DNA of 64,000 nucleotides from Bryoerythrophyllum caledonicum (lineage: Eukaryota > Streptophyta > Bryopsida > Pottiales > Pottiaceae). Shown in pieces: positions 1 through 57,939 of the stretch. The stretch covers positions 37,622,199 to 37,686,198 of the forward strand of contig OZ020516.1 of the NCBI GenBank assembly GCA_963971425.1, read 5' to 3'. Position 1 is the first letter of the stretch. Each line of letters begins with the position of its first letter. Made by a program: the position numbers and the translations under genes. Under the pieces are notes generated by a model. It saw only the letters and a list, made by a program, of their open reading frames with translations. It searched no databases and had not been told where the DNA came from.

Positions 1-666
1 ATTCTTGGAGAGGTGTATTGGGGGCCGGGGGTGATAGGGCAGTGTCGGGTTGGGGGGGTGGGTTAGTTGGAGGGTAGTTCTTGGGGAGATGTTATTGTTG
101 GTAGTGATGAATGGGTCTTTGAGTCTATGGGAATATGGGTGTATGGGGCAAGGGGTATTGCATGTTGTTGGACATGTTGGTTGGCAAAAGAGTTGTTTGG
201 CCATATTTAAGGCGCACTTAATAAGTTTGGATGGGGTAAAGTGGTAGGTTTTGAAGTCCTCATTATTCACGATGTGTATGCCATTTGGAAGAGTAATTTG
301 TTTTAATTCAAAAATATTTTTTGAAATGAGTTTTTGTAGGAGTTTTTTGGAGTGTTGAGGATTGAGTGTATTGTGATTTCGTGTTTCTTGGTGCCATGAT
401 ACTTCTAATGGTGTGGGATCAAGGAGGAAGTTTGGGAGTGTGCTTTCGAGGTGAACTTTAGCTATATGTTTTAATAGGTAGAGTGTACGAGTTATTGGTG
501 ATCTTATGCAATCCGTTTTTTTAATTCTGGGAATATTTTTGGCTCCACCTTGTTGAGCTAGGACATATTGAATTTGTCCTTTGTATATTTTCCCGAGTCG
601 TCTTTTGTATATTTTCCCGAGTCGTCCTTTGTCATTTAGAGCATTTTGTAGTTGTTCACCTATGCA
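1..666 (-). pseudogene. LINE copy 1 ORF2, region after the reverse transcriptase (partial)
   Basis: No long reading frame remains, but the minus strand aligns by eye with 26870-27260 of LINE copy 2, for example around 240-300 and 27035-27110. This is the linker between RT thumb and the downstream unidentified/RNase H region. A direct duplication of about 22 bp (TTTGTATATTTTCCCGAGTC, at about 579-600 and 604-626) breaks the frame. The rest of ORF2 lies outside the window. Confidence 0.6.
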
Positions 667-2197
667 TCAGAGATAAGCATTTTTAAGGGAGAAGGCTTCC
701 AGGCCAATTAAATTTTGTGGGAGTTGGGTTATTGCATTTGACATACATTTTGGTATACCACAAATGGTTTTTTGTATGGCTATAATTTTTTGATCTAGTT
801 TTTTGATGGCTGGCATAGAGTATGGTACAACGTAGAAGCTGTATGCTACGCCTGGGCGTATTGCGATGTCAACCATTTTAATTTTTTGTTTCAAAGTGGC
901 CGGACATGTTGTTAATTCTTTGCATTGTTTAATGAGTTTTGTGGTTGTGGTATGGATTTGGATTTTCCATTTTAGAGAGGGAACAAGATTTGTGCCTAGG
1001 TATACATAAGATTCATTTTGGTGTAGTATGGGGATTGGTTGGCCACGGTAGTTGATGTTAGGAGCTTGCATTAGGGCTTTAAATGTAGTTGGATTCATTT
1101 TGGATTTATTTAGACAACCGGTAGGAGCGCATTTTTGGACTCCTACGTCATACGAGTCCATTTACAATATTTATCGATTTTATCAATTTGTGTTTGTAAT
1201 GATTTTATTTTGTTAGTTATGGTAGCAAGGTCGTCGGTGTAGGTGGCAGAATTGATGGTGATTTGTGATGTTCCAAAAATGTATCCACTATTACCTTGCT
1301 CTAGCCATCTAAGTAATGGTTCTAAAAATATAATGAATAGGTATGGACTAAGGGTGTCTCCTTATATGGTTCCTCTATGAATGGGGATAGGCTTAGTCTT
1401 TTCAAAGTGTTCACCTGTATAGTGAGTAGATGATTGTGAGTAAATATTTCCAACTAGTGCAGTTGCATCGTTTGGGTATCCAATGTCAGTCATTATTGCT
1501 AGTAGTTGAGCGTGATCTATAGATCCAAAGGCGTTTTTGAAGTCAACATGTAGAACGTATATGTCTTGATTTGTGAATCTTGTGTCTTTTAGTGCCGCTA
1601 TTATGGTTTGTATTTGTTTAGAGGTACTTCATTCTGCTCTAAATCCTTCTTGACTATCGTGTAAGATTTTAAACTTTTTACCATATGAAGATAGTATTGA
1701 GGTAAGTGTACTAGTGTATAGTTTATATATTGTGTTAGCTAATGCGATTGGTCTATGATTTGGTAGTATTGAAGGATCTCATTTTTTGTATAGTAAGATT
1801 GTTGCACTTGTTTTCCATGAGGTTGGTATTTGTTTTTGTTTATAGCAGTGAGAGAAGAATAGAGATAGTAATTTATGAAATCTTGGGGCATGTTTTTGAG
1901 CATTGAATTCGGTATACGGTCTGGCCCTCGGGCTTTGTTATTTCCGAGGTTACGGAGACATGTGTCGTATATGGCTCTGTTGAAGTATGTATGTTATGGA
2001 ATTTCACGTTTGCCTCGTTTGTCTAAGGTAAGTCCATCCAGATCATGCCATGGATATTGGTGTATTGTACATGTGCATTCGTTGGGTGTTGTGGTTGGTA
2101 ATTACATGTTGGTACTGTGGGTCTATTGTTTTTTGCCTGTTGGTTGAATATTTCGTTTGCAATGTCTTTGGGACTATTTAGAGTGTTATAGTATTGG
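667..2197 (-). pseudogene. LINE copy 1 reverse transcriptase domain, degenerate
   Basis: Minus-strand translation in pieces shows successive RT blocks: a motif near 1790-1700 resembling PNHRPIALANTIYKLY; motif A DFKNAFGSIDH near 1545-1510; motif B reading RGTI-stop-GDTLSPYLF, where the conserved Gln codon has become TAA (1362-1364); motif C YTDD at 1230-1241, a variant of the usual LINE YADD; and a thumb segment with YLGT in the open frame 1161-667 (164 residues). RT copies the LINE RNA onto nicked target DNA. Several stops and frame changes make this copy dead. Order and spacing of motifs make the call strong although no single ORF spans it. Confidence 0.85.
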
Positions 2198-2209
2198 TCA
2201 ATGATACAA

Positions 2210-2336
2210 GTCTATCCTCGAGAGGGGGAAGTAGCCCCATGCTACTAATTCCTTACCTGGTAGGCACGGTATTAGTGGTGGTGCGAACAGACACTTTATT
2301 CATGTTGGTCCTCGACGTTCTTCTTCTTCTTCTTCT
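2210..2336 (+). mobile_element. SINE with (TTC)n tail and 12-bp target duplication, inserted in LINE ORF2
   Basis: A 127-bp insert flanked by perfect direct repeats TCAATGATACAA at 2198-2209 and 2337-2348. It begins GTCTATCCTCGAGAGGGGG and ends in six TTC units. The right two thirds (about 2255-2325) match the 3' end of a LINE at 55425-55510 (minus strand), sharing blocks such as CTTTATTCA. The left third is SINE-specific and recurs at 30628-30651. A weak A-box-like string (TGGTAGGCACGG) is present, but I cannot show tRNA ancestry. Removing the insert with one repeat leaves the LINE ORF2 frame continuous, so it landed in a coding LINE. On the minus strand its tail reads as a run of Glu codons at the end of an open frame. 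Confidence 0.85.
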
Positions 2337-2348
2337 TCAATGATACAA

Positions 2349-2990
2349 TCTAGTGGTGGAGATTCGGATTTTTTAAAGACTTTTCTATTTATTTTCTTAG
2401 GGCTAGTTTCGTATAATTGTCTATATTTTGAGATGGCTTTTTTAATATTATCTTGGGAGTGTTTTGTAGTTACTTTCCGGGCTTGTATATTGGCCTTTTT
2501 TGCAATTAGTGCAATGTCTTTTATCCATGTGTCATGAGGTAGGTCTGCGGGAGGTCGGGCAAGGATTTGGGTATGCTGCAGGGTTAGTAATTCGTTCAAT
2601 ATGGCATGATTACGCCATTGTGGGTTATTTTTCACGATTCTAAAAGTTTTTCGTATTATATGGTATGTAGCTAGGTGTTGTTTCCATGTTTTAGAAAGTT
2701 TGCGGGATAAGTAACCGCCTTGTTGTGATGTTCGATTTGTCATTTGTGGTATTGGTTGGGCTTTACAAGTTTGTTCCAATGTATCAGAGATGTTATTGAT
2801 AAGTGTATCTAGGATGTGGCATATTTTGTGCCATTGTGTATGAGAGAGTTGGTTATTGATTTCAAGGATGTTTATGAGAGAGTCAATTTGTATGGAGTTT
2901 TTTTCAAAGAACTCTGTATTGAATTTTTCTATATTATCTTTTGGGATGGGGTTTAGTATTTGGATATTATCATTGTTTGTGATTATAGGG
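2349..2990 (-). pseudogene. LINE copy 1 ORF2, segment between endonuclease and RT
   Basis: The open frame 2779-2349 on the minus strand encodes a Lys/Gln-rich linker (motifs such as SRKLSKTWKQHL and KKINRKVFKKSESPP) typical of the region between EEP and RT in LINE ORF2. It runs into the SINE at 2336. Upstream, 2990-2780 continues the C-terminal flank of the endonuclease with frame changes. Confidence 0.6.
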
Positions 2991-3720
2991 GTACAAATGA
3001 TTAGTATGTTATTTGGGATGTGAAGTTGTATAGGCGAGTGATCCGAGTTAAGAATAGTGTCTTTGTTTGTTGTAGAGGTGTATTATGGAGTATTATTTGT
3101 ATTTATATAAAAGCCGTCTATTAGGCTCCAATCACTGTAGTTATATCCGCCTTGTCTGGAATATTGTGTATCAATATTTATGTAGGTGAAGTTTAGGTTT
3201 TCCGTGAAGTGGCGCCATTGGTAGTCTATGTTTTGTGGGGGGTGTTATGGTTATTGTTTTGTCGACCAATTAATGCTATGTCTCTATTGAAGTCTCCACA
3301 TAATATGTAAGTGTAGTTAGGGTTATTATTTATTTGAGATGTAATAGTGTTTTGTATGTCTATAGTAAATGTGGTATCTTCGGGATGGGAGGGCATATAC
3401 ATGTGAAAGATTAACAATGATTGTAGTGGTTGATTAGCGATTTTAATTATTTGGAGGTAGGGAGATATGTGCATTGGGGTAGGATTTTTTTTGATGTTGC
3501 CCGAAAAAGCGTATTTTTTGTGTATCAGTGTAAGGAGGCCACTGCGGCCCGGTGTGTATGGCCTACGTTGTTGGATGCATCTTGTTAGTGCACGTGTGTT
3601 GTTAAAAATAAGTTTGTAGTCTTGAAATATGTTTTGTATGTATTTTGTAGATTTTGTGGCCGATATTTTTGTTTCTTGTATAACTATGACGGCCGGTGGT
3701 GTGTATGTATGTGTGACCAA
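2990..3720 (-). pseudogene. LINE copy 1 EEP (APE-like) endonuclease domain
   Basis: Minus-strand frame 3720-3226 starts near a VIVIQETKIS motif (the metal-binding Glu of EEP nucleases) and reaches YILCGDFNRD (the GDFN motif). After a frame change near 3230 the domain continues, with DWSLIDGFYI and then a final ILNSDHSPI block (SDH motif) near 3050-3020. EEP nicks target DNA to prime reverse transcription. All three hallmark motifs are present, so the fold is clear. The frameshift and a stop near 3080 make it non-functional. Reading starts inside the domain; no start codon can be assigned. Confidence 0.85.
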
Positions 3721-5235
3721 GGTGTGAAGGCTAGGGAGAGCGGTGTTTAGAGATGAAGCATTCCATGTAATTATGTTTGTGTTTTCATTATTTGAACTAA
3801 TATTTTGGTTATGTGGGAGAAGATAAGAGGGTGGGGGGGGTGGATGGGTATATTCTGGTATGGGGTCAAAACATTTTAGTGACTCGTTAATTAGTTTGTT
3901 AGGAAGGTAAGGAAATTTTTGTTTTATTGTGTTGCTTGAAGGAGGTATAGTTTGACTATGTAAAAAATTGTATAATTCTTTGTGTATTGAGTTCCCGTGG
4001 TTTATAATACTTTGATTTTCTTCAAGAAATTTTGTACAAGGGTGTGGGGTACGAATATGTCTTTCGGGTGGGTTTTGTAGATTTGATACGGTTCTTAGTT
4101 GTGTGTTAGTCCATGTAATTATGTTTGGGTTTTGAGAATTTAGAAGACGGTTATATTTGTCTATGTTTGGGTGGATGGTAATTACTAGGGCATATATATG
4201 TGTGTTGATGGGTGTGTATTTTGTTGTTGTATGTATTGGGCAATATTTAGGTGTGTATTGTTGTGTAGTTGATGTAATATATGTGTAGTTTTAAAAAATG
4301 GTGCAAATGTTTGAGCGATGTGTTTGTATTCTGGATGTAGTTTTATGGTATTTGGTATAAAGTATATTTTGGCATTTTTTTAATGTGTAGTGGGATGTCT
4401 TTTTAGTACATTAGGCATGGGTCCCGGATTGGTTTCTATATCTCCACTTAGTAGTAGTAGAATTGTATAGTGTAATGGTTTAATGTGTTGCTTTTGGTTT
4501 ATTGGTTTATGTATATTTTTTAGATTGGTTGTCTTTTTGTTTTTGGTTTAGTATTTTTGTTTATAGGTATGTGTATGTTTTTGTTTGTGGGGTTTGTTGT
4601 GATTGTGTTTTTGCTTGTGATTTTGATGTATGGAGTGGTACTTGAGGTGTAGACAATATTGGGTATTTTTATGGTTGCATTTGTGTGCATGGTTTGATTA
4701 TTCCAAGTATATACATAGTGTCTTTGTATATGTGTTTGTGTGTGTTTGTAGGTTAGGCAAAGGGTGTGGTTTTTTTGTTTTTTTTTGTTTTAATAGTTTT
4801 TTATGAAGTATTTGTATTTGATGTAGTATGAAGTATAGCATTTGGTGCATCTTGGTGTGTATTTTGTACGGTATTTGTGTTGGGTATAGTATATGCAATA
4901 ATTATACTTTGTATGGTATTTGGTATGGTATTTGGTACATTGTGCAATATAATCTTTTGTTTTGTGTTTATATAGGATATGGTATTTGTATTTTGTATGT
5001 TTTTTGAAAGAGTGTTTGTATTGTTGGTAATGGAAAATAGAGTATTGAGTAAGGTGTAAACTATAGTATGTATTTTGGTATTGAGTATATGTTTTAATAG
5101 GATGTACATTGATCGTATTTATGTACTTGTAGACTACTACGTAGTCCATACTAGTTTTGTATAGAGAGTCTATATTGTATTGTATAGTGTGATATATTTA
5201 AGGGTAGATACGTAATACCATGTGGTCTTTGGACG
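3721..5235. repeat. LINE ORF1-ORF2 spacer with low-complexity GT/AT repeats
   Basis: 3721-4540 has no convincing frame, although it may hold the decayed N-terminus of ORF2. 4540-5110 is a degenerate minisatellite on the + strand built from GTATTTG/GGTATG-like words; on the minus strand it reads as Tyr/Thr/Lys-rich frames that I regard as translation of repeats. No other gene seen. Confidence 0.5.
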
Positions 5236-6872
5236 TCACATGTTTGGTTCAAGTCTTGGTTTGTTGACTTTGCCCGCAAAGGCTCTCATGCCTTCAAGTA
5301 TGGCAAGCATGGATTCTTTAATTTCTTCCATTTGTATCTTCAATTCATCATGTAGTTTGTCGGTGTATTCCCTATTCTCTTGCCTCATTTTCTTGTTGTT
5401 CTCTTTCAATAATTCCACCATATCTCTCTTGGTAATGTTGTCACTCTTCTCTTGCATATTGAAGGTGGATATAGTGTTGACGATTGCGGTGTTGACGTCG
5501 TCAAAGCCAAAAGTTTTCACTTGCTCATCGATTGGTGGTTCAATACCTTCCAAGCTCCTTCGGTGGGGTGAGAAATCAACATAGTTTCTACCAAGGACAT
5601 GTGTTTTCTTCACAAAGGTTCTATAGACAATAGCATTAGAACATACAACATTGGCACTACCATTGTGGTTGGTGCCATTGTCCTGGTGGAACCAAATTGA
5701 TCGTACATTAGCTCCACCTATGGCTCTATAGATTTCATGGGTGGTGCTCTCAATACAATGGGAAATGGGAAGTGGTGAGAGATTAAGTGTCAATGCATCT
5801 TTTTTAGCTTTGGTTTTGATAGTACCTTTGGGTCCTTTTGTATCAAGGACTTGTCTTGCTTGCAAGACTTCCCCCCGCAAGGTAATATGGTGCAATAATA
5901 CCTTCTTCACTTGTTGCGGTGTCGTGGCGATGATGAAGGCATGTGAATCATTAATGGGCTTTTGTACTCCCGATATTTCAAACTCATGCCCCCGGTGGAA
6001 GCTATTTCCAAGTACTTTGAAAAGTACTTGTATGGAGATCCTCACCAAAGCTTCGCTTTTGATCTTCACGGATAAGTTAGAGCCATTGGCAATCCCATGA
6101 TAAATTTTACATACTTTGCCCACTACACATTCTCCATTAATTGTTAGAATGAAGGGCTTTAGGCCCTTAAGTAGCATCAAACCATCGGTTTTTGGTTTGA
6201 GGAGGTGCAATTTAATGCACCCCGCCCAAACCCCTTTAGTTTTCCCATTTTTAATGCTTAAACATTGGATTGCAATTGGATCAATGAGTTCTATTCCCTG
6301 AATAATGTTCATCTTTTTTAGTCTTGCCTTCACCATATTCTTAACATCGTCATGCACGAGAGGGGTTTTAGAGGTTTCAAAGAAGATGGCAACATAGAAA
6401 TCAAGGAATAGTCCGAAATTCTTACTTGTTGTGATGTCGAAAGGTACTTGTGTGAGGTTGTAGTGTTGTCCTTCTACTCCAGTTCTTGTCATCGGGTAGA
6501 GCACTTAGGGGATGCAGGGGAAGGCCACTCTTGCTTTGAACGCCTCTATAGCTTCCTCCTCCTTGAATCCTCTCGTGATCATGTCCTCCACCGTTTTTCC
6601 ACTGAACAATTCTTCAGCTCGTTCTTCTACCGCCATGGCCTCTATGATAGGAAATCCTAGCCAAAATTTAAACTTGGAGAGTTCTGGTGTTTGGAGTGAC
6701 TTACCATTTTTAGCTGAAGAGATTTTTTCTTCTTGCTGCTACTAGCTGGTGCTCCTTCCCTCCTTGTTGTCTTTGAGCTGGGTGTCTTGTCGGGGCTCCT
6801 TTCTTGGGACTCCATCTCCATGTCGGTGTCCAGGTTCTCCATGTAGCTTCTGGACATGATATCTGGAGTCAT
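5236..6872 (-). pseudogene. LINE copy 1 ORF1 protein
   Basis: A 422-codon open frame (6504-5236) lies directly 5' of ORF2 on the same strand, where LINE ORF1 belongs. Its last 90 residues form a charged heptad-like coiled coil (KRDMVELLKENNKKMRQEN...), a usual ORF1 multimerisation feature. The same frame continues upstream beyond a single TAA at 6505-6507 to about 6690 (with FPIIEAMAVEERAEELF), and an N-terminal stretch with a basic SSKKKKSLQL patch lies in another frame at 6872-6657. So the original protein was roughly 540 residues, now split by one stop and one frameshift. ORF1 proteins bind the LINE RNA. I recognise no RRM or zinc knuckle. The first ATG inside the long frame is at 6492. 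Confidence 0.65.
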
Positions 6873-25011: not shown

Positions 25012-25538
25012 AGGTAGAGGCACCCAATTCTGATCACTTAAGCCAGTTTGGGACTCAAATGACATTGTATGTCAAAAACATTTATGTAGAAAGATGCAGA
25101 ATTAGAAATGAAACTCAACAAATATGTTTTCAAATTTGATCTCAAAGATTTGCAATTGATATAGAATTTAAAAGCCCAAAAACCACCGGAGCCCATAATC
25201 AAACTCTAGAGTAGGTGAGATTTGGTGCCCTCCTTTGCCTAATGCCAATAAGTGAGAGTGAATAAAAAGAGAGAAGTCATGCCATGGATAACCAACTCAT
25301 GGAGGTACTCAATGTCGATCAGCCTTGTTCAACTTTTGAGGCAAGGCCACCAATGAGAGCTCAATTGAGGTGGAGCAATCCAAAATTGCACACATTATGA
25401 CCCAATGCCGATAATGACTGGTGTTTTCAGATTTTGAGTTATAGGTTTTGGGTCACTTCATGCACCATTTCAAGCATTTGCCATTTTCATGCACCATGCC
25501 ATGCATACTCTTCTTATTGGAATTGGGTGCCCCTACCT
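25012..25538. mobile_element. TA-flanked MITE, copy 1
   Basis: 527 bp with inverted ends AGGTAGAGGCACCCAATTCT and AATTGGGTGCCCCTACCT, flanked by TA at 25010-25011 and 25539-25540. It is nearly identical over most of its length to 30652-31195. TA duplication suggests Tc1/mariner-type mobilisation. No transposase frame. Confidence 0.8.
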
Positions 25539-26552: not shown

Positions 26553-26769
26553 GAGATCATATGTGAAGAGAGAGAGAGAGTGGCACATTACTTGACTTCT
26601 AAAGACATCATAATAACATGCTTTGCTTAGTAGGCTATAACAAAAATAAATGTGGGTGGCAAAGATTGTATAGAATGGAAGAACTACTACACAATCTACG
26701 TATACAAAGGATGTCCGGTTTGAGCCGAGATTAATCTACGTACACTAGCTGATTGCACTAGATCACAAA

Positions 26770-26853
26770 TCACGCGGACATTTTTTCTACTAAAAAATGA
26801 AGCAAAAATTTACCTCACGCGGACATTTTTTCTACTAAAAAATGAAGCAAATT
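26770..26853. repeat. Tandem duplication, ~44-bp unit
   Basis: Two adjacent copies of a unit beginning CACGCGGACATTTTTTCTAC, just before LINE copy 2. It could mark the insertion junction. Confidence 0.7.
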
Positions 26854-26859
26854 TTTCCT

Positions 26860-29800
26860 GAAAAGCACATTCACAGACTTCCTCTTAGAACCCTCACCTT
26901 TGGAACAAATGCGGTTACAAGAAACCCAAAACGACACACGAATTAACCAACACCTCTTTCAAAAACTTTTACAAAAACTTTTTCAGCACATACTACCAAC
27001 TTAAACCAAATTACATTACCAAATAGAACAGACATTATGAACCACAATGACTTCAAGACATTTCATACTACACCATCCAAACTAATAAAAAGTGCTCTTA
27101 ATATTGCCCAACAACTATTTTGCTACCCCGAGGCCCTAATACATGGGCCTCACCATGTCTTGCACACCCAAATCCCTACACCCTTAATAGACAAAAATGC
27201 TACCACCTACAATAACACCCACCGCAGAAACAACACCCCACTAATTCACCCCCATTAATCCACCGCACCTATCCCATCCTCCCCTTCCTACACACATTCT
27301 AAAAATACCCATCCACATATCCCATAAATCTCATTATCATAAACCATAAACATACCCAAAAACAAACCCCCTCAAACTCGCACAATAAACATTATCCATG
27401 CCCATTCTAAACTCACTAACTTGTCCTTCAACATCCAACACTCATACTTCTCATCTTCCGTCACACGCTCCATGCAACTCACTATGTTCCACTCACCATT
27501 TGAAAGAGACAAGATCTTTGGTTCATTAGGGAACGCCTTTGACCACAAATGGATTGGAAATGGTATTGCGCACCCCGATAATATAGAAGAAATACAACAA
27601 GGAATACATTGCGCAAGACTAGCAGCCAAAAATGATCCAATAAATACTTCTACTCTCATTATTACACCAGATAATAAGTGGTACCAAAACTTTTAACCTC
27701 ACTTAGGACCATTCCCAGACTCCTACATCATTGCATTATTTGAAGCAGACTTGGTACCATACGAAGAACCCACTATTCCACCCGAACTAAAAAGCAAACT
27801 TAGACTTGAGCCATCCACCATACAAATAATACATATACACCACCAAAATAATAATGTTGATAGCATGGAAAAACTTACCACGCTTACTAACATAACAAAT
27901 AAACTCAACATACACCGAGTATACACAAAAACAACCCCACCCACACCTTCCCATACCCCTCTGAATTGCAACAAAAAATGGTCCGAGCTTAAATATGTAC
28001 AGACAACACCAATCCACCTCACTATCCCACCCCCTCTCCACATATCATGATACTAGCCCCTTGAAATTCTAACCTGCATATGGTTGCTATACATACGGTT
28101 CCTTCTAAGAACTTGCAGAAGCTAGCCCTGGACATTGGCATAGTGAAAAAGCAGGATATGGTATATATAATTTTACGAAAGAAATAAAAATATCCAAAAG
28201 ACTCCATGGACTTCAAAATATCCTCAGAGGAGAGATGATGGTCCTTTACAAAACCCTAAAAGTATCACCACACAATATGCTAAGGAACTCGCACACATCT
28301 TTACAGATTGCATAAACGTCTTATATCTATTAAACACACAAATAACACACCCTACCCTCCACAATAGTCACCTCGAGGAAGCCATACTTACATCTATGGT
28401 CCAAATGCTACAAAACCGCACACAAATTACAACCCTCCATAAAGTTAGAGCACATGTCAATATAGAAGGAAACAAACAAGCGGATAAATTAGCTAAGAAA
28501 GATTAGATAAATCCCATAGAAATGCTAAACACTTATACAAACATGCCCACGCTACTCCATACTATTTCCAAAGAGAAAATTGGTCTTCTATGGAAGACAC
28601 CCCAGACAAAGGCCCCATAAGATTTCTGGACAAATATCTTAAAAAACAAGAGATAATTAACAACCTAGATGTAATCTCGGAAGTTATTCCTAACATAGAC
28701 AAATGGACTGATACCAACAACATTTATAACGAACTCGTACAAATTTTTGGAAAAATCCCACAATTACAAACTCACAAAAAACATACCTCATCAAATTCCA
28801 TACTGGACAAAATATGGGAAATGCCCGCAAACAACTCTTCTTTGGAATAGAAAGATTACCATCTATAACATGCCCATTATGCACCTCCACGGACCCAAAC
28901 ACATGGCTACACGTACTCCTCAAATGCCAAAACCATCACATACACTCCCTAATTGTCAAAAGGTACAATTAAGCCGTCTGGGAAATCCAAAAACTAATCA
29001 TATCCTCTATAAATCTCGATGCTTTATTCTTATCAACGCTGTAACGTTCAACAACAATGCACAAGAAAACATGGTCCCTCAAATGCTACTTCCATGCACA
29101 TGTGGAACCCAAAGATGCCATTATAATGCCATATTTAAACCAGACTACTATGCGTCAAAGGATTACCATATAAAGCCCCCCACTGGACTATATCAATATG
29201 AACCTTACTATCCAATTTATCGGATTCAAATACTGTAATGACGAATTTTCTTCATAAGCAACCAAAAACAAAATAAGTAAATATGAACCACTTATTAATG
29301 ACATTGGTGCTCTTGGATGGAGAGTTGACCCCCTTGTTGCCATTACCGCTAGAGCTAGAGCTACAACCTTTATTCCCTCTATGCAAAGTCTCAAAAAAAC
29401 ATTTAATATCCCCATAAACCCAATTAACCCCTAAAGGACCAGAGTCTCATTCGGGGGGAATTCTGATTTTGGGCAGGTTCCTAAAATTCGAAAAAAAATC
29501 CTTTTTCTTTGAATTTTCTGTTCTAGATTGCATCTGATAAGAGCTTCGTGGACATATTTTTATTTTATTTTTTGGATTTGTGGTTTGAAAGTTAGTACCA
29601 CTTAAAGCCAAAAGTGGGGACACCGGGCACCTCCAAAAAATTTGACAAAAGTTTCTATTGACATTGAGATTTTTCACACATATAAAGAATATTTCCTTTT
29701 GTGGAAATTTTCAAAAAAAAATCTTGTCTTTAGTGTAGAAAGGCATTTTATTCCAAGTCAAACATTTTCACACATTGTCGGGCAACGGGGGAAAAAAACT

Positions 29801-30480
29801 TCATCTTTTCTACATAAAACCTATAGATCTTCATATTTTTCACTTTTTATTTTTTCAACAACAATATGTGGTGAAACCTTCTTATTGACCGTTTGGATTA
29901 TCATTTGAACACATACGTAGTTCACAAAAAAATAAAACGTGAAATGACAATTTTTGAACCTCCACTCCTTGCACACTTGTTTTGAATATGCTACACCCCT
30001 TTTTACCTCTAAAAATTGGTGAGTTGGGAAATAACATCATGCTTAAGACAATGGTAAAAGATTTGGACCTTGTACAATGCAAAAATTTGATACAAAGTGA
30101 AGTCAAAGTCTACTAATCTACTCAACACAAGGAAGAAAATGAACCATTGTTTTGACTTTAAACACTAAAATCTATCAATCTGTGTGGTGATTGCAACCAA
30201 AATTATACGACATGTTTATATAGAAGTCTATTTTAAGATCTTACGGTTGAAAACCCGAAATTCACTTTAAAATGTGATTTTCTTGTCTCTTTTTGGCAGT
30301 GGCAGTTTTGGACTGGTTTTAGAGCAAAAGTGGTTGTGGTCCTCTAGGGGTTAAAAGACTTTCACTAAAATTAATACCATCGCTATCCAACACGCAAATT
30401 CCATACTTCTACACAAAAGTAACCTCAAAAACAACCAACCTCTCCCAGACTTACATGATACCTCTTAAATACCCAAAATT
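26860..30480 (+). pseudogene. LINE copy 2: 3' half of ORF2, split by TTAA element E
   Basis: A 5'-truncated LINE copy on the plus strand. 26870-27260 matches the reverse complement of 480-1. 27421-28050 encodes an unidentified segment with motifs FERDKIFGSLGNAFDHKWIG, AHPDN, STLIITPDNKWYQNF and PYEEPTIPPEL. 28137-28505 is an RNase H domain (YGIYNF-like start, HIFTDCINVLYLLN, NIEGNKQADKLAKK). 28590-29260 is the C-terminal region with the C-x2-C...H...C motif CPLC...HVLLKC, in shifted frames. The C-terminus continues past element E (29424-30354) to about 30450. Frameshifts and stops are frequent. The copy is informative because it supplies the part of ORF2 missing from copy 1. Confidence 0.75.
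29424..30354 (+). mobile_element. TTAA-flanked element, copy E, inside LINE copy 2
   Basis: 931 bp between TTAA at 29424-29427 and 30351-30354. Ends are TTAACCCCTAAAGGACCAG and GGTCCTCTAGGGGTTAA. Very similar along its whole length to copy F at 51868-52799 (same left block TTCGGGGGG, same ACATTGTCGGGCAACGGGGG). LINE C-terminal coding sequence resumes immediately after it. Confidence 0.9.
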
Positions 30481-30627
30481 AAAATAAATTTACACAAAAA
30501 AAAAAACGCACACACAGACATTCAAACTCTACAAATCATTCCTTGGAATGGTGCCTTGTGACTTTAACCGATTTTGGTCATGGTCATTGGTTACCAATTA
30601 CTGGTTAATGGTCATTGGTTATATAGT

Positions 30628-31298
30628 GTCTACCCTCGAGAAGGGGGAGTAAGGTAGAGGCACCCAATTCCGATCACCTAAGCCAGTTGGGGACTCAAAT
30701 GACATTGTATGTCAAAAACATTTATGTAGAAAGATGCAGAATTAGAAATGAAACTCAACAAATATGTTTTCAAATTTGATCTCAAAGATTTGCAATTGAT
30801 ATAGAATTTAAAAGCCCAAAAACCACCGGAGCCCATAATCAAACTCTAGAGTAGGTGAGATTTGGTGCCCTCCTTTGCCTAATGCCAATAAGTGAGAGTG
30901 AATAAAAAGAGAGAAGTCATGCCATGGATAACCAACTCATGGAGGTACTCAATGTCGATCAGCCTTGTTCAACTTTTGAGGCAAGGCCACCAATGAGAGC
31001 TCAATTGAGGTGGAGCAATCCAAAATTGCACACATCATGACCCAGTGCCAATAATGAGTGGAGTTTTCAGATTTGAGTTATTGGTTTTGGATCGATTCAT
31101 GCACCATTTCATGCATTTTTCAATTTCATGCACCATGCCATGCATACTCTACTGATCGGAATTGGATGGCCGATCGGAATTGGGTGCCTCTACCTTAGTT
31201 CTATACTACTAAATCTATGCCAGGTGGACATGGTTTTAGTGGTGGAACAAACATACACTTTATTTACTTCGGCCCTTACTGTTGAGAACCAAAGTTCT
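30628..31298 (+). mobile_element. SINE copy 2, split by a TA MITE
   Basis: Left part 30628-30651 (GTCTACCCTCGAGAAGGGGG) matches the SINE head at 2210. After the MITE the sequence resumes at 31196 with TAGTTCTATACTACTAAATC and AGGTGGACATGGTTTTAGTG, matching 2229-2325 of SINE copy 1. A faint TTCTTCTTTC tail ends near 31298. Target duplications could not be resolved. Confidence 0.7.
30652..31195. mobile_element. TA-flanked MITE, copy 2, nested in SINE copy 2
   Basis: 544 bp with inverted ends AGGTAGAGGCACCCAATTCC and GGAATTGGGTGCCTCTACCT and TA on both sides (30650-30651, 31196-31197). Nearly identical to 25012-25538 apart from a small duplication near its right end, where GATCGGAATTGG occurs twice. 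Confidence 0.85.
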
Positions 31299-31529
31299 TC
31301 TTTCATTTTGAATTATATCACCTACACAAATTTTTTAATTATCATAAAATTTATAGTATACATTGGTGTAGTATGTGGTGAAGTCAACCTTAACCCTTTG
31401 AACACATTTTCCCATTTGTATTTAATTCACCAAAGAAGTCTTAATACACATATCCCATCCTTTAAAAGCTCATTATTTATGAAGGCCAAATCGGAATTTA
31501 CATGTGAATTTAGATTTATTATTCACCAT

Positions 31530-45040: not shown

Positions 45041-45599
45041 CCAATGGAGGTAAATCATCTTGGGCAACTGGTACAAATGTCCTATGTGCATCCAAGATGT
45101 CATCCACTTTTCAATAAAAAGGAAGAGAAATAGTAGAAAAGGCTACATCAAAGGTGGATGATGGTGCAAGGTTGGTCCACACTCAGTAGGCTGACCCACA
45201 TGGCCCCGTACAGGGGGCCATCAACTACCGTGTGGGCAGTGGCGGGTCCCACCCGACGGGGCCCAAATTATCAGCCATGCACGCATATGGATGAGCCAGT
45301 GGACCAATTTTTTTTTACTTTTCGTTGTGGTTTTTTCACTTTCGATTGTCGCCTCCTTCCTTAAGTAACAACAGGCTAATTTTACTTTCGGTTGTCGCCC
45401 CCTTATTTATTATTCATTTTTTAGAAAAAAACTCTTTCTCTACATGCTTTTCTCCTCTCGAGGTTGCTCTTGTGCAAGGCAAAAATTATATTCTACACGA
45501 TATTTTGTACAACTTCTTTTCTAGTTTTTTTCCAGAGCACACATGAGAATATCATAATTTAGACTATGCTTTAGTGAATATCCATTAAAAATAGTTGTA
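45041..45599. other. Unassigned spacer
   Basis: No gene recognised. Contains two copies of a TTTTACTTTCGGTTGTCGCC-like word near 45315-45400. Confidence 0.3.
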
Positions 45600-46541
45600 C
45601 AGTAGGGTGACATTCAAATTGGTGTTTGGGCAATTCCAGGGATGGTGTCCCACACTGCTGCCAACTTTGACGCCCTCCACAGGGCTGAAAAATTGTTCTT
45701 TTACCCTAAAATTTTGGGAACAGCATCACCTCTATGTTAAAAACATGCATACCAAATTTCAAGTCCAGAGGACTTATAAAACAAAAGATATTAAAAATTA
45801 ACCACCATGGGGTAGCTGTGAGAAAAGTTTCTCAACCGCCAACTTTGACACCATCCCAAGGATTGAGGAAATTTTTTTTGCCCATGAAATTTTTGGAGTG
45901 AGAACACCTTTATGTTGATTACATGTGTGGAAATTTTCAAGTCCAAAAAATGCACCAAAAAAAATCACATCCCAAATCTACCAACATGTGTAATTGTGAG
46001 AAAAAAAGGGAAAAACCATTTTACTACTTCCAACTTTGACACCCTCCCTAGGATTGAGGGTTTGTTATTTCAACATGAAATTTTTGACACATGGTAACCT
46101 TTATGTTGATAACATGTGGGAAAATTTTCAAGGCCAAAAAATGTATTCAAAAGAAGATATTCAAAATCTACTAACATGGGGGTTAGTTGTGAGAAAAGTT
46201 TCATAGCTGCCCACTTTGACACCCTCCCAAGAATTCAAAAAAATTGATTTGTCCATGAAATTTTGGGTATGAAGTCTCCTTCACGTCAAATACAAGTGTG
46301 GAAAATTTCAAAATCCAAAAGATTTACACAAAAAACATATACCAAGTCTACCAACATGTATTGTTGTGACAAACAAAGGGGAAAGTTTACCACTACTTCC
46401 AACTTCAACACCCTTCCTAGGATTGAGTTTTTGTTGATACATAATGAAATTTTGGCCACAAGATCATCTCTATATTGATAACATATGAGATAGATTTCAA
46501 AGCTAAAAGATGTATATACAAAAAAAAATTATTCCATATCT
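45600..46541 (+). repeat. Left 942-bp TIR with five internal subrepeats
   Basis: Five units of about 180-190 bp, marked by CCAACTTTGACRCCCTC-like words at 45661, 45839, 46030, 46210 and 46399. Each unit carries a poly-A stretch and a GTTGATAACATGTG-like word. The inner end ATTCCATATCT overlaps the transposase stop codon. Confidence 0.88.
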
Positions 46542-47547
46542 ACCAACGTGTATGTCCTCCATTAGCATCAATCACCGCTTGTAACCTTGAGGGCATAGAA
46601 TGACATAGTTGAAGGAGCTTTGTACCACTAACCAAATTCCACTCTTTTTCAAGAACTACCTTCATCACTTCTAAGTTTCTAGGGCATTCCTTGCCATGTT
46701 GCACAACATCTTTTAGCATCCTCCAGACATTCTCGATTGGATTGAGATCGGGAGAGTTTGCAGGCCAATTGAGCTTTTCGAGTTGGTGGGTTTGTCTCCA
46801 TTCTTCACATGTTTTGCTACGATGAACACGTGCACCATCTTCCATTAGCACTCCTTCTGGAAGTCTATTCAAGAAATGAATCAATTCGCCATCGTAGACC
46901 ACTTCAACTAAATCTTTAGCAGAACGTTGAGTTTTTGGCATAAAGATAAGTTGTGGCTTTTGTCCTCCAGCAAATGCACTCCAAATCATCAAAGATGTCC
47001 GTCCACTTTTAAAAGTAGGAACTATACAACTTGATGAATAACGCTCATATGCACTTCTCCAAACATGAATTTGCCGAAAACTTTTTCCAATCACAAAAGT
47101 AGATTCATCTGTCTAAACAATACGCTCCCACTCTTTTGGACTCCATCCATGGTACTTCTGAGCAAAAGCTAACCGTTGAGACATGTGATGGGATGTCAAG
47201 AAAGGTTTTTTGACTGCAATTCGACTAAAAATATCACTTTTATGTAATACCCTTTGAATAGTACGACTACACACTTGAGTATGGCACATATTAGTAATAT
47301 CTGAGACCGAGGAACGACGATGAGTTTTTGCATAACGCACAATATTATTCACATCTCTCTCACTAAGTTTTTTAGCGTGTCTTCCACCGCAAGGTTTGCG
47401 CTTATAAGTTCCATCTTCTTTAAACGTTTTTAGTAACCTCTGAACTGTTCTAACAGAAACTCCAGTAATGGCTGCAATTTGAACTCCTGTATTTCCTCCC
47501 TCACTCAAACCTATAATGCGAGCACGGATTTCATCTGAAATTGCCAT
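46540..47547 (-). pseudogene. Tc1 (DD34E) transposase with one in-frame stop
   Basis: Reads from ATG 47547 to a TAG at 46540-46542. N-terminal helix-turn-helix: MAISDEIRARIIGLSEGGNT, then GVSVRTVQRLLK; a second HTH follows with SVSDITNM and CSRTIQRVL. Catalytic residues: Asp in TDES, Asp in MEDGARVH, Glu in SPDLNPIENVW, with 34 residues between the last two (DD34E). About 335 codons, the normal length for Tc1. The only defect is a TAG at 47110-47112, just before TDES, where a Trp is usual in the family (a one-base TGG to TAG change). It cuts and pastes the element at TA sites. Its stop codon lies on the edge of the left TIR. Confidence 0.92.
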
Positions 47548-48361
47548 TATAGACTATTTTTTATGATGTTGATACAATACTAAATGCTCTTCAATAAGTA
47601 ATCAATATAACACTCAACCTATGGCAATTGGATTATATAATTCAGTAAACACAAAGGACTGAGCTTATGGCATGTGCACTAAATAAATCAATCAACAACA
47701 TAACACTCACATTGGCATGTGCATTAGGTGATAACCATGGCATGTGCATTAGATGATAACCATGGCATGTGCATCAATTGAGTGAACCAAAAAATACTCT
47801 TGGACATACTCATGCCACATGTGATTCGTCAACACTCAGTAAACTAGTCAACAACACTCAACCAAAAAAATATATATATCCACTCAATAAATCAGCCCAT
47901 ATGTGATATGCCCACTCAATGGATCAGCCCATATGTGATTGTCTACTCAATCAGTCAACAACACGCAGCCCATATCTAATATGTCCACTCAATACCATCT
48001 CAACATTCACTCTCAATACCATCTCAACATTCACTCTCAATACCATCTCAACATTCACTCTATTACAAATCACATGACAAAATACACACAACATTTCCTT
48101 TACATAGTGCTCAACAGATATTTGGAGGAGAAAACTCGTCATACGTGCATAATGCACACCAAACCTTATGACAAGTGGATTCTTCTACACAAAACAACTC
48201 TGCAATTCTACATGTAGATTTCATTGATCTTTTCAAGATGCATTTATGTTTGGTAGCTTAGTCACATGAATAAAATCAATGAAGAGTACGAGGTGTCAAA
48301 GATAATTTGACATTCTCAATATGCCCCTTCAATATAGTTTCTCATTGTTACAAACATTAGG
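47548..48361. repeat. Tc1 element spacer with short tandem arrays
   Basis: Contains GGCATGTGCATTAGATGATAACC units (about 47715-47775), paired CAGCCCATATGTGAT words (47893-47940) and three exact 24-bp units CTCAATACCATCTCAACATTC (about 47988-48062). The frames here are repeat translations. It lies upstream of the transposase start and could hold its promoter. Confidence 0.7.
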
Positions 48362-49303
48362 AGATATGGAATAATTTTTTTTTGTATATACATCTTTTAG
48401 CTTTGAAATCTATCTCATATGTTATCAATATAGAGATGATCTTGTGGCCAAAATTTCATTATGTATCAACAAAAACTCAATCCTAGGAAGGGTGTTGAAG
48501 TTGGAAGTAGTGGTAAACTTTCCCCTTTGTTTGTCACAACAATACATGTTGGTAGACTTGGTATATGTTTTTTTGTGTAAATCTTTTGGATTTTGAAATT
48601 TTCCACACTTGTATTTGACGTGAAGGTGACTTCATACCCAAAATTTCATGGACAAATCAATTTTTTTGAGTTCTTGGGAGGGTGTCAAAGTGGGCAGCTG
48701 TGAAACTTTTCTCACAACTAACCCCCATGTTAGTAGATTTTGAATATCTTCTTTTGAATACATTTTTTGGCCTTGAAAATTTTCCCACATGTTATCAACA
48801 TAAAGGTTACCATGTGTCAAAAATTTCATGTTGAAATAACAAACCCTCAATCCTAGGGAGGGTGTCAAAGTTGGAAGTAGTAAAATGGTTTTTCCCTTTT
48901 TTTCTCACAATTACACATGTTGGTAGATTTAGGATGTGATTTTTTTTGTGCATTTTTTGGACTTGAAAATTTCCACACATGTAATCAACATAAAGTTGTT
49001 CTCAATCCAAAAATTTCATGGGCAAAAAAAATTTCCTCAATCCTTGGGATGGTGTCAAAGTTGGCGGTTGAGAAACTTTTCTCACAGCTACCCCATGGTG
49101 GTTAATTTTTAATATCTTTTGTTTTATAAGTCCTCTGGACTTGAAATTTGGTATGCATGTTTTTAACATAGAGGTGATGCTGTTCCCAAAATTTTAGGGT
49201 AAAAGAACAATTTTTCAGCCCTGTGGAGGGCGTCAAAGTTGGCAGCAGTGTGGGACACCGTCCCTGGAATTGCCCAAACGCCAATTTGAATGTCACCCTA
49301 CTG
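48362..49303 (-). repeat. Right 942-bp TIR
   Basis: Inverted copy of 45600-46541 with only scattered substitutions, for example a GTCCC to GACCC-type difference near 49258. It ends at the TA target site. Confidence 0.88.
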
Positions 49304-49534
49304 TACATGCTTAGATATCAAGGATGTAAAATACTATTTCACAACCTCTATTAATATTGAGAGGGGCATTTTGGATGTACTTCTTTTGTTCACAATTTTC
49401 TCATCATTGGGATTCATACCCACCACTTGTATAATATGCAGTGATGTAGAGAAATTATTAGGTTTAGAAAAATTATTACTAAAATAACTCTTATTTAAGT
49501 TAATCAGAGTACGTGAATTTGAATAAGTGAATGT

Positions 49535-55419: not shown

Positions 55420-56795
55420 GAGAAACGTCGGTCCGCAAAGGGGCCGGCGTGAATAAAGAATTTGTTCGTTCCATCACTAAGACCATGTCCACCAGACACC
55501 ATGTCGGGGAGGGCTTGGTTTCTTTTCCATTTTGCGTTGGTGTAGTAGAATGGACATGGCCTGTTCAATAGCAACAGTGTTAATAATATTGAAAGTGTGT
55601 GAAATTGTTTCGATGGAGATTTTAAAGGTATCTGAAAAGGAAATTTATAGATGGGATAAAGGTGGTGGCACGAGCATCGGCAGTGATTACAATAAGCGGG
55701 TCCATTTTCCATCCGAGGGCAATGATGTCATTAATAAGGGGTTCGGTTGGTATTCATTTATTTTGTTTTCAATTGTTTCCAGGGAGAATCTATCATTACA
55801 ATATGTGAATTCGATGAATTGAATGGTATACTCTTGGTTAATGTGGTCGGGTGCAGGGTCGTTGTATGGTAGGCCCCGAATGCAAAGTATGTCGGCTTTA
55901 AGTCTAGCGTTACAAAGACAGCGCTAAGTTGCGCATGTGCATGGGAGTCGGGAGTAGCCAAGGGGGGACCGTATTTCCTTTTGGGTTGTAACTTGTTATT
56001 AAAGGTGCCGGCATTCATGAGGATAAATCATCGTGATTTGTTATGCGAGGTAAATAGTTATCGAATTTCCCGTACTGCTTTGTTATGTCTTGTGACAATT
56101 AAGGAGTGTATGTGATGGTTTTGGCATTCTCAGTAGAATATGGAGTGATTTGTTGGGGTCTGAGGAAGTGCATATGGGGCATGTTACATATGGGAATTTT
56201 TCTATTCCAAATAAGAGTTGTTTTTGGGCGTTTCCCACATGTCGACTATTACGGAATTTGGTGACGCGTGTTATTTGTGAGTTCTTGATGATTGTATTTT
56301 TCCAAGAATTCGTAGAGAGTTCATAGTCTATTTTGTTGTTGCCAACCCATTATTCTATATTAGGGAAGTTTTCTTTGATTGTGTCAAGGTTGTTATAGAG
56401 GTCTTGTTTCTTGAGATATTTGTTCAAGAATAAAACCGGAACCTTAACGGGGGTATCCTCTTTAGGAGGCCAATCTTCTTTTTGGAAGTAGTATGGGGTA
56501 GCATGTGGATGTTCGTATGAGTCTTTGGCATTTTCATGCGTTTTTTTGCGGACCTCTTTTCCAAGTTTATTTGCTTGTTCGTTTCCATCGATATTTGCTT
56601 GAGCAGAACTTTGTGAAGGGTTGTTATATGTGTTCAGTTTTCTAACATGTGGACCAACAACATTAAAATAGTTTGGTCGAGATGGCTATTGTAGAGGATA
56701 GGGTTTGTTATTTGGATGTTTAGTAGATAAAGTGCATTGATACAGTCAATGAATATGTGTGCGGGTTTGTTGTTGTATTTTGTATGGCGAAGAGA
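55420..56795 (-). pseudogene. LINE copy 3, 3' part of ORF2 plus 3' end, inverted arm
   Basis: The minus strand from 56795 encodes part of RNase H (HIFIDCINALYLLNIQ), the C-terminal region, a MNAGTFNN block (56018) also present in the right arm, and the last ORF2 segment. It then enters the 3' UTR with CTGGTGGACATGGTCTTAG (about 55495-55475) and ends near 55420 at GACGTTTCTCTGC. This 3' UTR matches the SINE tail. Many frameshifts. Confidence 0.75.
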
Positions 56796-56796
56796 A

Positions 56797-57939
56797 AAAG
56801 CCGGATATGGAATATACAACGCTACGAAAGAAATCAGACTAGCCAAAAGACTACATGGACTGCAAAATATCCTTAGAGCAAAAATAGGGGCCATCCATAA
56901 AACACTAGAAATCGTCTCAACAAAATACAACAATGAACCGGTGCACATATTTACAGATTGCATTAACGCACTATATTTACTAAACACCCAAATAACACAT
57001 CGTACCCTCCATATTAGTCACCCCGACCAAATCATACAAGAATCAATGGTCCAAATGATACTAAAACGAGGACAAATCACAACCCTCCACAAGGTCCGAG
57101 CCCATGCTAATATCGATGGCAATGATCAAGCGGATAAACTTGCAAAAGAAGGAAGAGAAAAACCACATAAAAATGCCAAAGACCCACATGAACACGCCCA
57201 AGCCAGTCCTTCCTATTTCCAAAAAGAAGATTGGCCCTCCAAAGAAGACACCCCCGATAAAGGCCCGGTTAGATTCCTGAGTAAATATCTCAGAAACCAA
57301 GACCTACACAACAATCTTGACACAATCGCAGACAATTTTCCTAACGTAGAAAAGTGGATTATCAATAATGACATAGACAATGAACTCTCTACAAATTTTT
57401 GGAAAAACCCCATCATCACCGATTCACAAATAACATGCCTTATCAAATTCCGTACCGGTCAATACATGGGAAACACCCGCAAACAACTCTTCTTTGGAAT
57501 AGAAAGATTTCCATCCATAACATGCCCCATATGCCCCTCAACGGACCCGGACACATGGCTACATGTTCTACTCAAATGCCAAAACCACCACATACACTCC
57601 CTAATTGTCAAAAGACATAACAAATCGGTATGGGAAGTCCGAAAACTACTCACCTCTCACAATAAATCGAGATGTTTTATACTAATGAACGCCGGCACTT
57701 TTAACAACAATCCACAAGAAAATACGGTCCCCCCTTGGCTACTCCCATGCTCATGTATGACCCAAAGATGTCATTGCAACGCTAGGCTCAAACAGGACAT
57801 CGTTTGTGTTAAAGGTTTACCATATAATGATCCACCACCCGATAACATCAACCAAGACTACACCATTCAATTCATTGAATTCACATATTGTAACGTCGCT
57901 AAAGCATGCATGAACCCTAAACATGCAAAGTTTGAATGA
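56797..57939 (+). pseudogene. LINE copy 4, RNase H and C-terminal region of ORF2
   Basis: The best-preserved ORF2 3' region in the window: an open frame to TGA at 57937-57939. Codons from about 56797 give RNase H from its second strand (GYGIYNATKEIRLAKRL) through HIFTDCINALYLLN (catalytic Asp) to KVRAHANIDGNDQADKLAKE (last His/Asp). Next is a linker, then CPICPSTDPDTWLHVLLKC (C-x2-C...H...C) near 57525-57580 and the C-terminus with CSCMTQRCHCNARL. The first catalytic Asp of RNase H lies upstream of the truncation. RNase H removes LINE RNA from the RNA-DNA hybrid. Codons before 56797 belong to the antisense of the left arm. Confidence 0.8.

Follow-up and report, generated by a model that had tools for sequence, protein, structure and literature searches.

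Near the start of the window (the whole 64,000 nt stretch of DNA analysed here) lies a short insertion that raises the question of what kind of element it is: a SINE with a head of its own, sharing only its tail with a LINE, as was initially annotated, or a piece of the LINE itself. It is 127 bp long and, as had been recognised from the beginning, it is bounded by perfect 12 bp target repeats and ends in a (TTC)n tail; the tail has around six units. Its sequence continues, in longer copies, into the 3' untranslated region (UTR) of a LINE, and it combines a target duplication with the LINE 3' tail; it is thus very probably a 5'-truncated copy of a LINE 3' end, sitting inside another LINE (Table 1). 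As an event this is ordinary, a truncated LINE copy within a LINE, and the interest lies in the family that gave rise to it.

LINE ends in the window

Table 1. Coordinates of the insertion, its target-site duplications and the repeats discussed in the text
Feature	Position in window	Strand	Remarks
Insertion, very probable 5'-truncated LINE 3' end	2210..2336	+	3' UTR terminal domain; terminal hairpin decayed; (TTC)n tail
Left target-site duplication	2198..2209	+	TCAATGATACAA
Right target-site duplication	2337..2348	+	TCAATGATACAA
LINE A, element hit by the insertion	1..4490 (approximate limits)	-	3' end outside window
LINE B	26752..31310 (approximate limits)	+	Begins downstream of reverse transcriptase; two nested insertions
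LINE B 3' terminal domain, first part	30628..30651	+	With the MITE's left TA
LINE B 3' terminal domain, remainder, and degraded TTC tail	31196..31310	+	With the MITE's right TA
MITE in LINE B tail	30652..31195	+	TA duplication, inverted ends AGGTAGAGGC...
Repeat inside LINE B	29428..30350	+	TTAA flanks, ends CCCCTAAAGGACC / GGTCCTCTAGGGG
LINE C	55424..56844 (5' limit approximate)	-	Shared tail 55495-55424
LINE D	56844..57893 (approximate limits)	+	RNase H domain; inverted neighbour of LINE C

Three copies of the tail were compared: the insertion (A), the sequence at 30628 joined to that at 31196 (B) and the LINE end at 55424 (C). The insertion matches 31196-31276 with 73% identity over 81 bp (E value 1.2e-10) and the LINE end at 55495-55441 with 74.5% identity over 55 bp (E value 2.4e-6), and its left 24 bp agree with 30628-30651 at 21 of 24 bases (87.5%). 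When each comparison was repeated with 500 dinucleotide shuffles, none of these reached the observed score: A and B scored 48.5 (shuffle maximum 15), A and C 27 (maximum 16.5), B and C 39 (maximum 16) and the heads of A and B alone 21.5 (maximum 12). The resemblances on which the SINE reading had been built, between the 3' part and a LINE 3' end and between the left third and 30628-30651, are thus real and not the product of chance. The tail at 55424 belongs to LINE C, whose end it forms, and is no independent SINE.

The sequence at 30628-31310, previously taken for a second SINE copy, was found to be the 3' end of LINE B itself, split by a MITE of which there is a second copy at around 25012-25538. 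The ORF2 stop codon of LINE B lies around 160 bp before the tail at 30628, and both the end of ORF2 and the tail align to a genomic LINE copy, the 3' UTR between them being poorly conserved; a target duplication that had been guessed by eye for a SINE at 30628 was withdrawn once LINE 3' UTR was found upstream. The TTAA-flanked repeat nested in the same element is one that we take to be piggyBac-like. In LINE C hardly any sequence separates the end of ORF2 from the later portion of the tail, an arrangement consistent with most of the 3' UTR having been deleted. Two LINE pieces at 55796-57893 form a 2.1 kb palindrome with arms 74% identical, possibly an inverted double insertion. Elsewhere in the window, inverted repeat arms of around 955 bp (45596-46549 and 48354-49307) are 98.6% identical to one another, and a DDE_3 transposase ORF lies beside the left arm at 46540-47112; together these probably represent a recent DNA transposon.

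The insertion interrupts LINE A, which is on the minus strand, and a comparison by eye shows that the genomic copy L041 is uninterrupted at this point (SPPLDCITDQYNN). Neither ARAGORN nor Rfam at gathering scores found a tRNA or small RNA in the window, and the head of the insertion is LINE 3' UTR instead of a pol III head derived from tRNA, 5S, 7SL or snRNA. A partial, B-box-like match seen by eye, GGTGCGAACAG, is present in the LINEs too. Other readings of this sequence were tried and rejected. A coding reading of the shared tail, based on a GGHGxSGGTN-like frame picked out by eye, meets an in-frame stop upstream in both A and B, and in the genome copies this sequence is 3' UTR; the head read as the 5' end of an internally deleted LINE had its best match at 6764 on the minus strand, with a score of 13 against a background of 11, and this reading has no match in copy B.

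L041 contains a nearly open copy of the LINE, with an upstream ORF that has no Pfam match, and an endonuclease (PF03372, 7.7e-5, just below the cut-off), a reverse transcriptase (PF00078, 3e-28) and an RNase H (1.4e-11); the endonuclease match of LINE A (PF03372, E value 1.4e-4) also falls below the Pfam cut-off. Near the N-terminus of ORF2 there is a 2A-like motif in L041 (LILIGGDIETNPGP, near 1957), and a 2A-like ribosome-skipping motif is found near the ORF2 N-terminus of LINE A too (LLLLSGDIETNPGP, window position around 4442, minus strand); the account in PMC4981915, citing Odon 2013, indicates that 2A sequences in non-LTR elements are already known. Between the reverse transcriptase and RNase H of the L041 ORF2 is a match to PF12237 (PCIF1_WW; L041:6439-9000, plus strand, residues 98-192), which at 42.4 bits and 7.1e-11 is above the cut-off, whilst solved PCIF1 chains gave weak matches (E values 0.012 and 0.026). 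The catalytic motif of PCIF1, NPPF, is not kept in the alignment, and hence any PCIF1-like activity of this putative domain is doubtful.

The tail domain, its 5' ends and its folding

When the window's own genome (437 Mb) was searched with the insertion, the best 40 of 1700 first-look candidates comprised the insertion itself and 39 matches, 83-88% identical over nearly the full length. Of 30 loci extracted, 19 have the C-terminus of a LINE ORF2 upstream, and at those with a full 3' UTR the pyrimidine-rich stretch following ORF2 runs into the supposed SINE head. A pattern for the left part of the insertion was present at 266 places in the genome with at most two mismatches, as against none for the reversed-pattern control. 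A set of 109 copies was then made up of the first 40 loci and 69 further pattern loci, read as 371 bp stretches (100 of the 266 were listed, of which 31 overlapped); this sample is biased toward insert-like copies and, as the pattern requires bases +10 to +45, truncations inside the domain are hardly seen in it and starts beyond around +12 are unsampled.

LINE 3' UTR, scored as present when 16 or more of the last 20 bases matched, lies directly upstream in 84 of the 109 copies, including one (L002) that is also headed by 5S rRNA. The remaining 25 consist of 12 short copies starting near GTCTACC, 12 sharing one satellite-like flank and the 5S-headed L005. The domain of around 127 nt with its (TTC)n is the end of the 3' UTR of a LINE family. 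Hence a SINE with a head of its own is not supported, and the left third of the insertion, which had been thought specific to a SINE, is LINE sequence.

The copies with a common flank (L016, L050, L052-L055, L060, L090, L091, L093, L094 and L096) lie in a TGTATATAT-rich repeat, and the LINE tail in this group seems to have been multiplied as a passenger of another repeat. A U1 snRNA match (L022:401-559, minus strand, 108.9 bits) was found around 1 kb from a LINE tail; no tail was seen beside the match itself in the stretch read. An IMG/VR search with the LINE protein returned two stretches that matched a pattern, neither of which is a relative.

To locate the 5' ends, start positions were counted relative to GTCTACC, using only starts with an accepted target duplication. 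The 17 such starts are at -149, -145, -87, -87, -83, -26, -19, -4, -2, -1, -1, 0, 0, 0, 0, 8 and 8. Ten of them fall within 13 nt (-4 to +8; P = 1.2e-7 under a uniform model, with the bin picked post hoc), and six are at 0 or -1. Among the copies that start there, L001, L003, L012, L021 and L034 have exact duplications; the duplication of L034 accounts for 13 of 15 script-aligned bases, the two mismatched ones being at its outer end. Some starts are weaker, those of L106 and L057 (a -1) having been judged by eye and those of L033, L086 and L107 depending on duplications of 9 bp, 10 bp and 12 bp with one mismatch, respectively. If three doubtful starts are taken away, 8 of 14 lie in the bin (P = 3e-6), and if five script matches judged spurious are added, 10 of 22 do so (P = 3e-6). 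The matches judged spurious were L008 at +1, L058 at -52, L069 at -120, L081 at -22, L092 at -136 and L095 at -50. The test left out the 12 satellite-embedded copies, owing to their common flank, L087 and L092, in which the duplication is imperfect or unclear, L008 and L115, which have no accepted duplication, and the 5S-headed L002 and L005. Target duplications are also found at copies truncated elsewhere (L006, L028, L032 and L118). 5' truncations therefore recur at the 5' edge of the domain of around 127 nt.

On a tree of 97 copies, from which the satellite group was excluded, placing the 12 short copies takes 12 changes, as many as possible, although 76 of the 94 inner branches are open and random labels would also be expected to give around 12. 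L062 and L063 fall in a different subfamily from most other short copies on this poorly resolved tree. The sequences thus indicate, short of proof, that the short copies may derive from several LINE subfamilies.

The RNA structure of the tail was examined in 110 aligned copies. Changes on both sides of a pair were found at 8 of the 11 pairs of a terminal hairpin, in one to four copies each, these being raw, uncontrolled counts; in the same raw counts they also occur at pairs 48/54 (13 copies) and 26/74 (four copies). Each terminal hairpin pair is broken in between 6 and 45 cells of the alignment. At least 7 bp are formed in 74 of the 81 hairpins that a script could delimit among 109 copies. 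RNAalifold, run on a gappy alignment of 41 copies, gave a covariation term of only 0.07 and left the terminal hairpin unpaired, and neither the insertion (z = -0.51) nor the LINE C tail (z = +1.06) folds better than its shuffles. The terminal 3' hairpin is, on balance, fairly supported.

Folded alone, L010 forms a closed unit with a GAGA-capped hairpin, a long branched hairpin and, before the (TTC)n, a separate terminal hairpin; the start point coincides with the beginning of the helix that closes the unit, GUCU/AGAC. Including 60 upstream bases makes the 5' part fold differently and abolishes the closing helix. This helix, which has no compensatory changes and has one pair broken in 25 of the 110 copies, is only a prediction. 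A 3' hairpin with compensatory changes, as judged by the raw counts and unseen by RNAalifold, thus precedes a tandem-repeat tail, and this combination would be compatible with stringent recognition of the 3' end by the LINE reverse transcriptase.

Fusions to 5S rRNA

In L002 and L005, Rfam detected a complete 5S rRNA immediately before the tail. A search for chimeras found L002 and L119-L122 to span both 5S and tail (5 of 41 rows, from the best 40 of 3136 candidates scored), so that, with L005, six 5S-headed insertions have been identified, which is a lower bound. In all six, the 5S sequence is in the sense orientation and complete at its 5' end, starting at GTGATGCGG as do the genomic 5S copies L125 and L126, and is followed by an ATT(TT) trailer; L120 keeps the 3' flank of another 5S copy (L123) up to a second T-run, like a pol III transcript. 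With junctions placed by eye, the start of the LINE part precedes GTCTACC by around 17-26 nt, except in L005, where it is near 0. In five of the six, 5S and LINE tail form a single insertion with target duplications of 12-13 bp, the TTC run of L122 extending to the end of the stretch. Rfam found no more matches in 39 further sources, L008 having been covered by the first scan and L041-L049 being longer stretches around nine of the first 30 loci, and no 5S end was seen by eye in the 60-base flanks of L050-L118.

Compared with the genomic 5S gene, the 5S heads show 1-5 differences in 119 nt, and pairwise identity among the tail domains is 79-95%. The six junctions differ among the fusions found, with no one 5S-tail junction shared. 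As both tails and junctions differ, the fusions look like independent events rather than members of one amplified family. Such a pattern would be expected if 5S had been joined repeatedly, in the course of reverse transcription, to LINE RNAs ending near the domain edge. Fusions between 5S and LINE tails are the kind of event thought to found 5S-headed SINEs.

At the 5S-headed tail of L005 the TTC run reaches around 228 units (1617-2299 in the match orientation), and there is a long run in L122 too; tail repeats can therefore expand strongly. A further 5S copy, L124, matches the 5S gene at all of 119 bases and lies inside a LINE, with no LINE tail at this copy in the stretch read. Spacings of 17.3 kb and 17.5 kb between 5S copies, on the small contigs C829 and C410 respectively, suggest that 5S is linked to the large rDNA unit. 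Together with the plant-like character of the 5S, this arrangement would point to a bryophyte or a streptophyte alga.

Origin of the short copies and known systems

These observations can be brought together in a model in which the LINE 3' UTR closes with a domain of around 127 nt that carries a terminal hairpin and the (TTC)n tail, and this end is most likely recognised by the LINE protein and used to start target-primed reverse transcription. The vicinity of the domain's 5' edge would be the preferred point at which copying, or the RNA template itself, comes to an end, the clustering arising from drop-off of the reverse transcriptase or from RNA fragments that end at this edge. Recurrent SINE-like insertions of around 120-135 bp would result, and the fusions may come from template jumps to 5S rRNA. 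The insertion was most likely moved by the machinery of that LINE, so the original suggestion of mobilisation by a LINE survives, whereas the status of the insertion as a SINE finds no support. The closing helix would explain the position of the edge, yet it is without compensatory change and has that one pair broken in 25 of 110 copies. More speculatively, and with the balance leaning against it, the 3' UTR domain could leave a discrete RNA of around 127-150 nt, as a stop to 5'-to-3' decay or a processing product, which would still be recognised by the LINE protein and retrotransposed as SINE-like copies; end-to-end template jumping onto pol III transcripts would join whole 5S to it, making the LINE a standing proto-SINE factory from which none has yet amplified.

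The short copies might instead represent a true headless SINE, the domain of around 127 nt being itself transcribed and, as a non-autonomous element, mobilised in trans by the LINE. A SINE with a fixed 5' end would likewise be expected to give the four starts at 0 and the two at -1, five copies with starts at these positions have exact duplications, and the 12-copy satellite-flank group also begins at or near GTCTACC. However, the starts in the cluster range from -4 to +8, the whole unit is LINE 3' UTR in those 84 of 109 copies, and the window holds no tRNA or Rfam small RNA, the B-box-like match being present in the LINEs too. Nor do the short copies group together on the tree, L062 and L063 lying in another subfamily, although with few tree columns, so many inner branches open and a number of changes close to that of random labels, there is room for a small SINE lineage. 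Overall, we consider a headless SINE unlikely. It is still less likely, to the point of being very improbable, that there is a 5S-headed family of the SINE3 type of which the short copies are 5'-truncated members. At least six 5S-headed copies with a complete 5S 5' end do exist, five of them from the best 40 of 3136 candidates scored, but their tails have diverged to 79-95% identity while their heads are only 1-5 of 119 nt from the 5S gene, their junctions differ, and 5S heads only L002 and L005 among the 109 tail copies, most of which have LINE 3' UTR upstream.

Truncation of the LINE itself, which we favour, has many precedents, as 5'-truncated LINE copies are familiar from L1, CR1, L2 and others. 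The copies described here share with these the LINE 3' end, the target duplication and the loss of the 5' part, but differ in that truncation is concentrated at the margin of a 3' UTR domain, leaving several copies SINE-sized. Correcting the SINE call shows that a LINE with a structured tail can yield SINE-sized copies without a SINE; given that the break recurs close to the tail domain's edge, an RNA ending at a specific point is predicted.

Stringent LINE/SINE pairs described in PMC3747384 include maize ZmSINE2 and ZmSINE3 with LINE1-1_ZM, tobacco TS with an RTE element ((TTG)n), Chlamydomonas SINEX and eel UnaL2/UnaSINE. As in the pairs presented there, the LINE 3' end closes in short tandem repeats or poly(A), and as in its maize and sorghum group there is a 3' hairpin with compensatory changes; in contrast to those pairs, the tail here is (TTC)n and no amplified SINE partner was found. 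In the literature searched we found neither a 5S-headed element nor a (TTC)n SINE/LINE pair from a plant-like genome, which does not prove their absence.

The fusions likewise resemble chimeras of small RNAs and LINEs, such as those of U6, 5S and others with LINE-1 (PMC13174262) and the WEIRD/MGL chimeras of Magnaporthe, for which switching at specific template sites is described (PMC2104539): as in the examples given in these sources, a small RNA lies 5' of a LINE 3' part within one insertion flanked by a target duplication. In the mammalian 5S/L1 chimeras of PMC13174262, however, the 5S is typically antisense and truncated, whereas here it is sense and complete in six of six. The joining of a 5S head to a LINE tail is also seen in 5S-headed SINEs of the SINE3 type, the DeuSINEs of vertebrates (PMC3747384, Table 1); unlike the elements tabulated there, the fusions found here give no evidence of amplification from one founder. 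With 5S fused to tails from several LINE subfamilies, a single genome would allow one to count how often a pol III RNA becomes joined to a LINE tail, the initial step in SINE birth.
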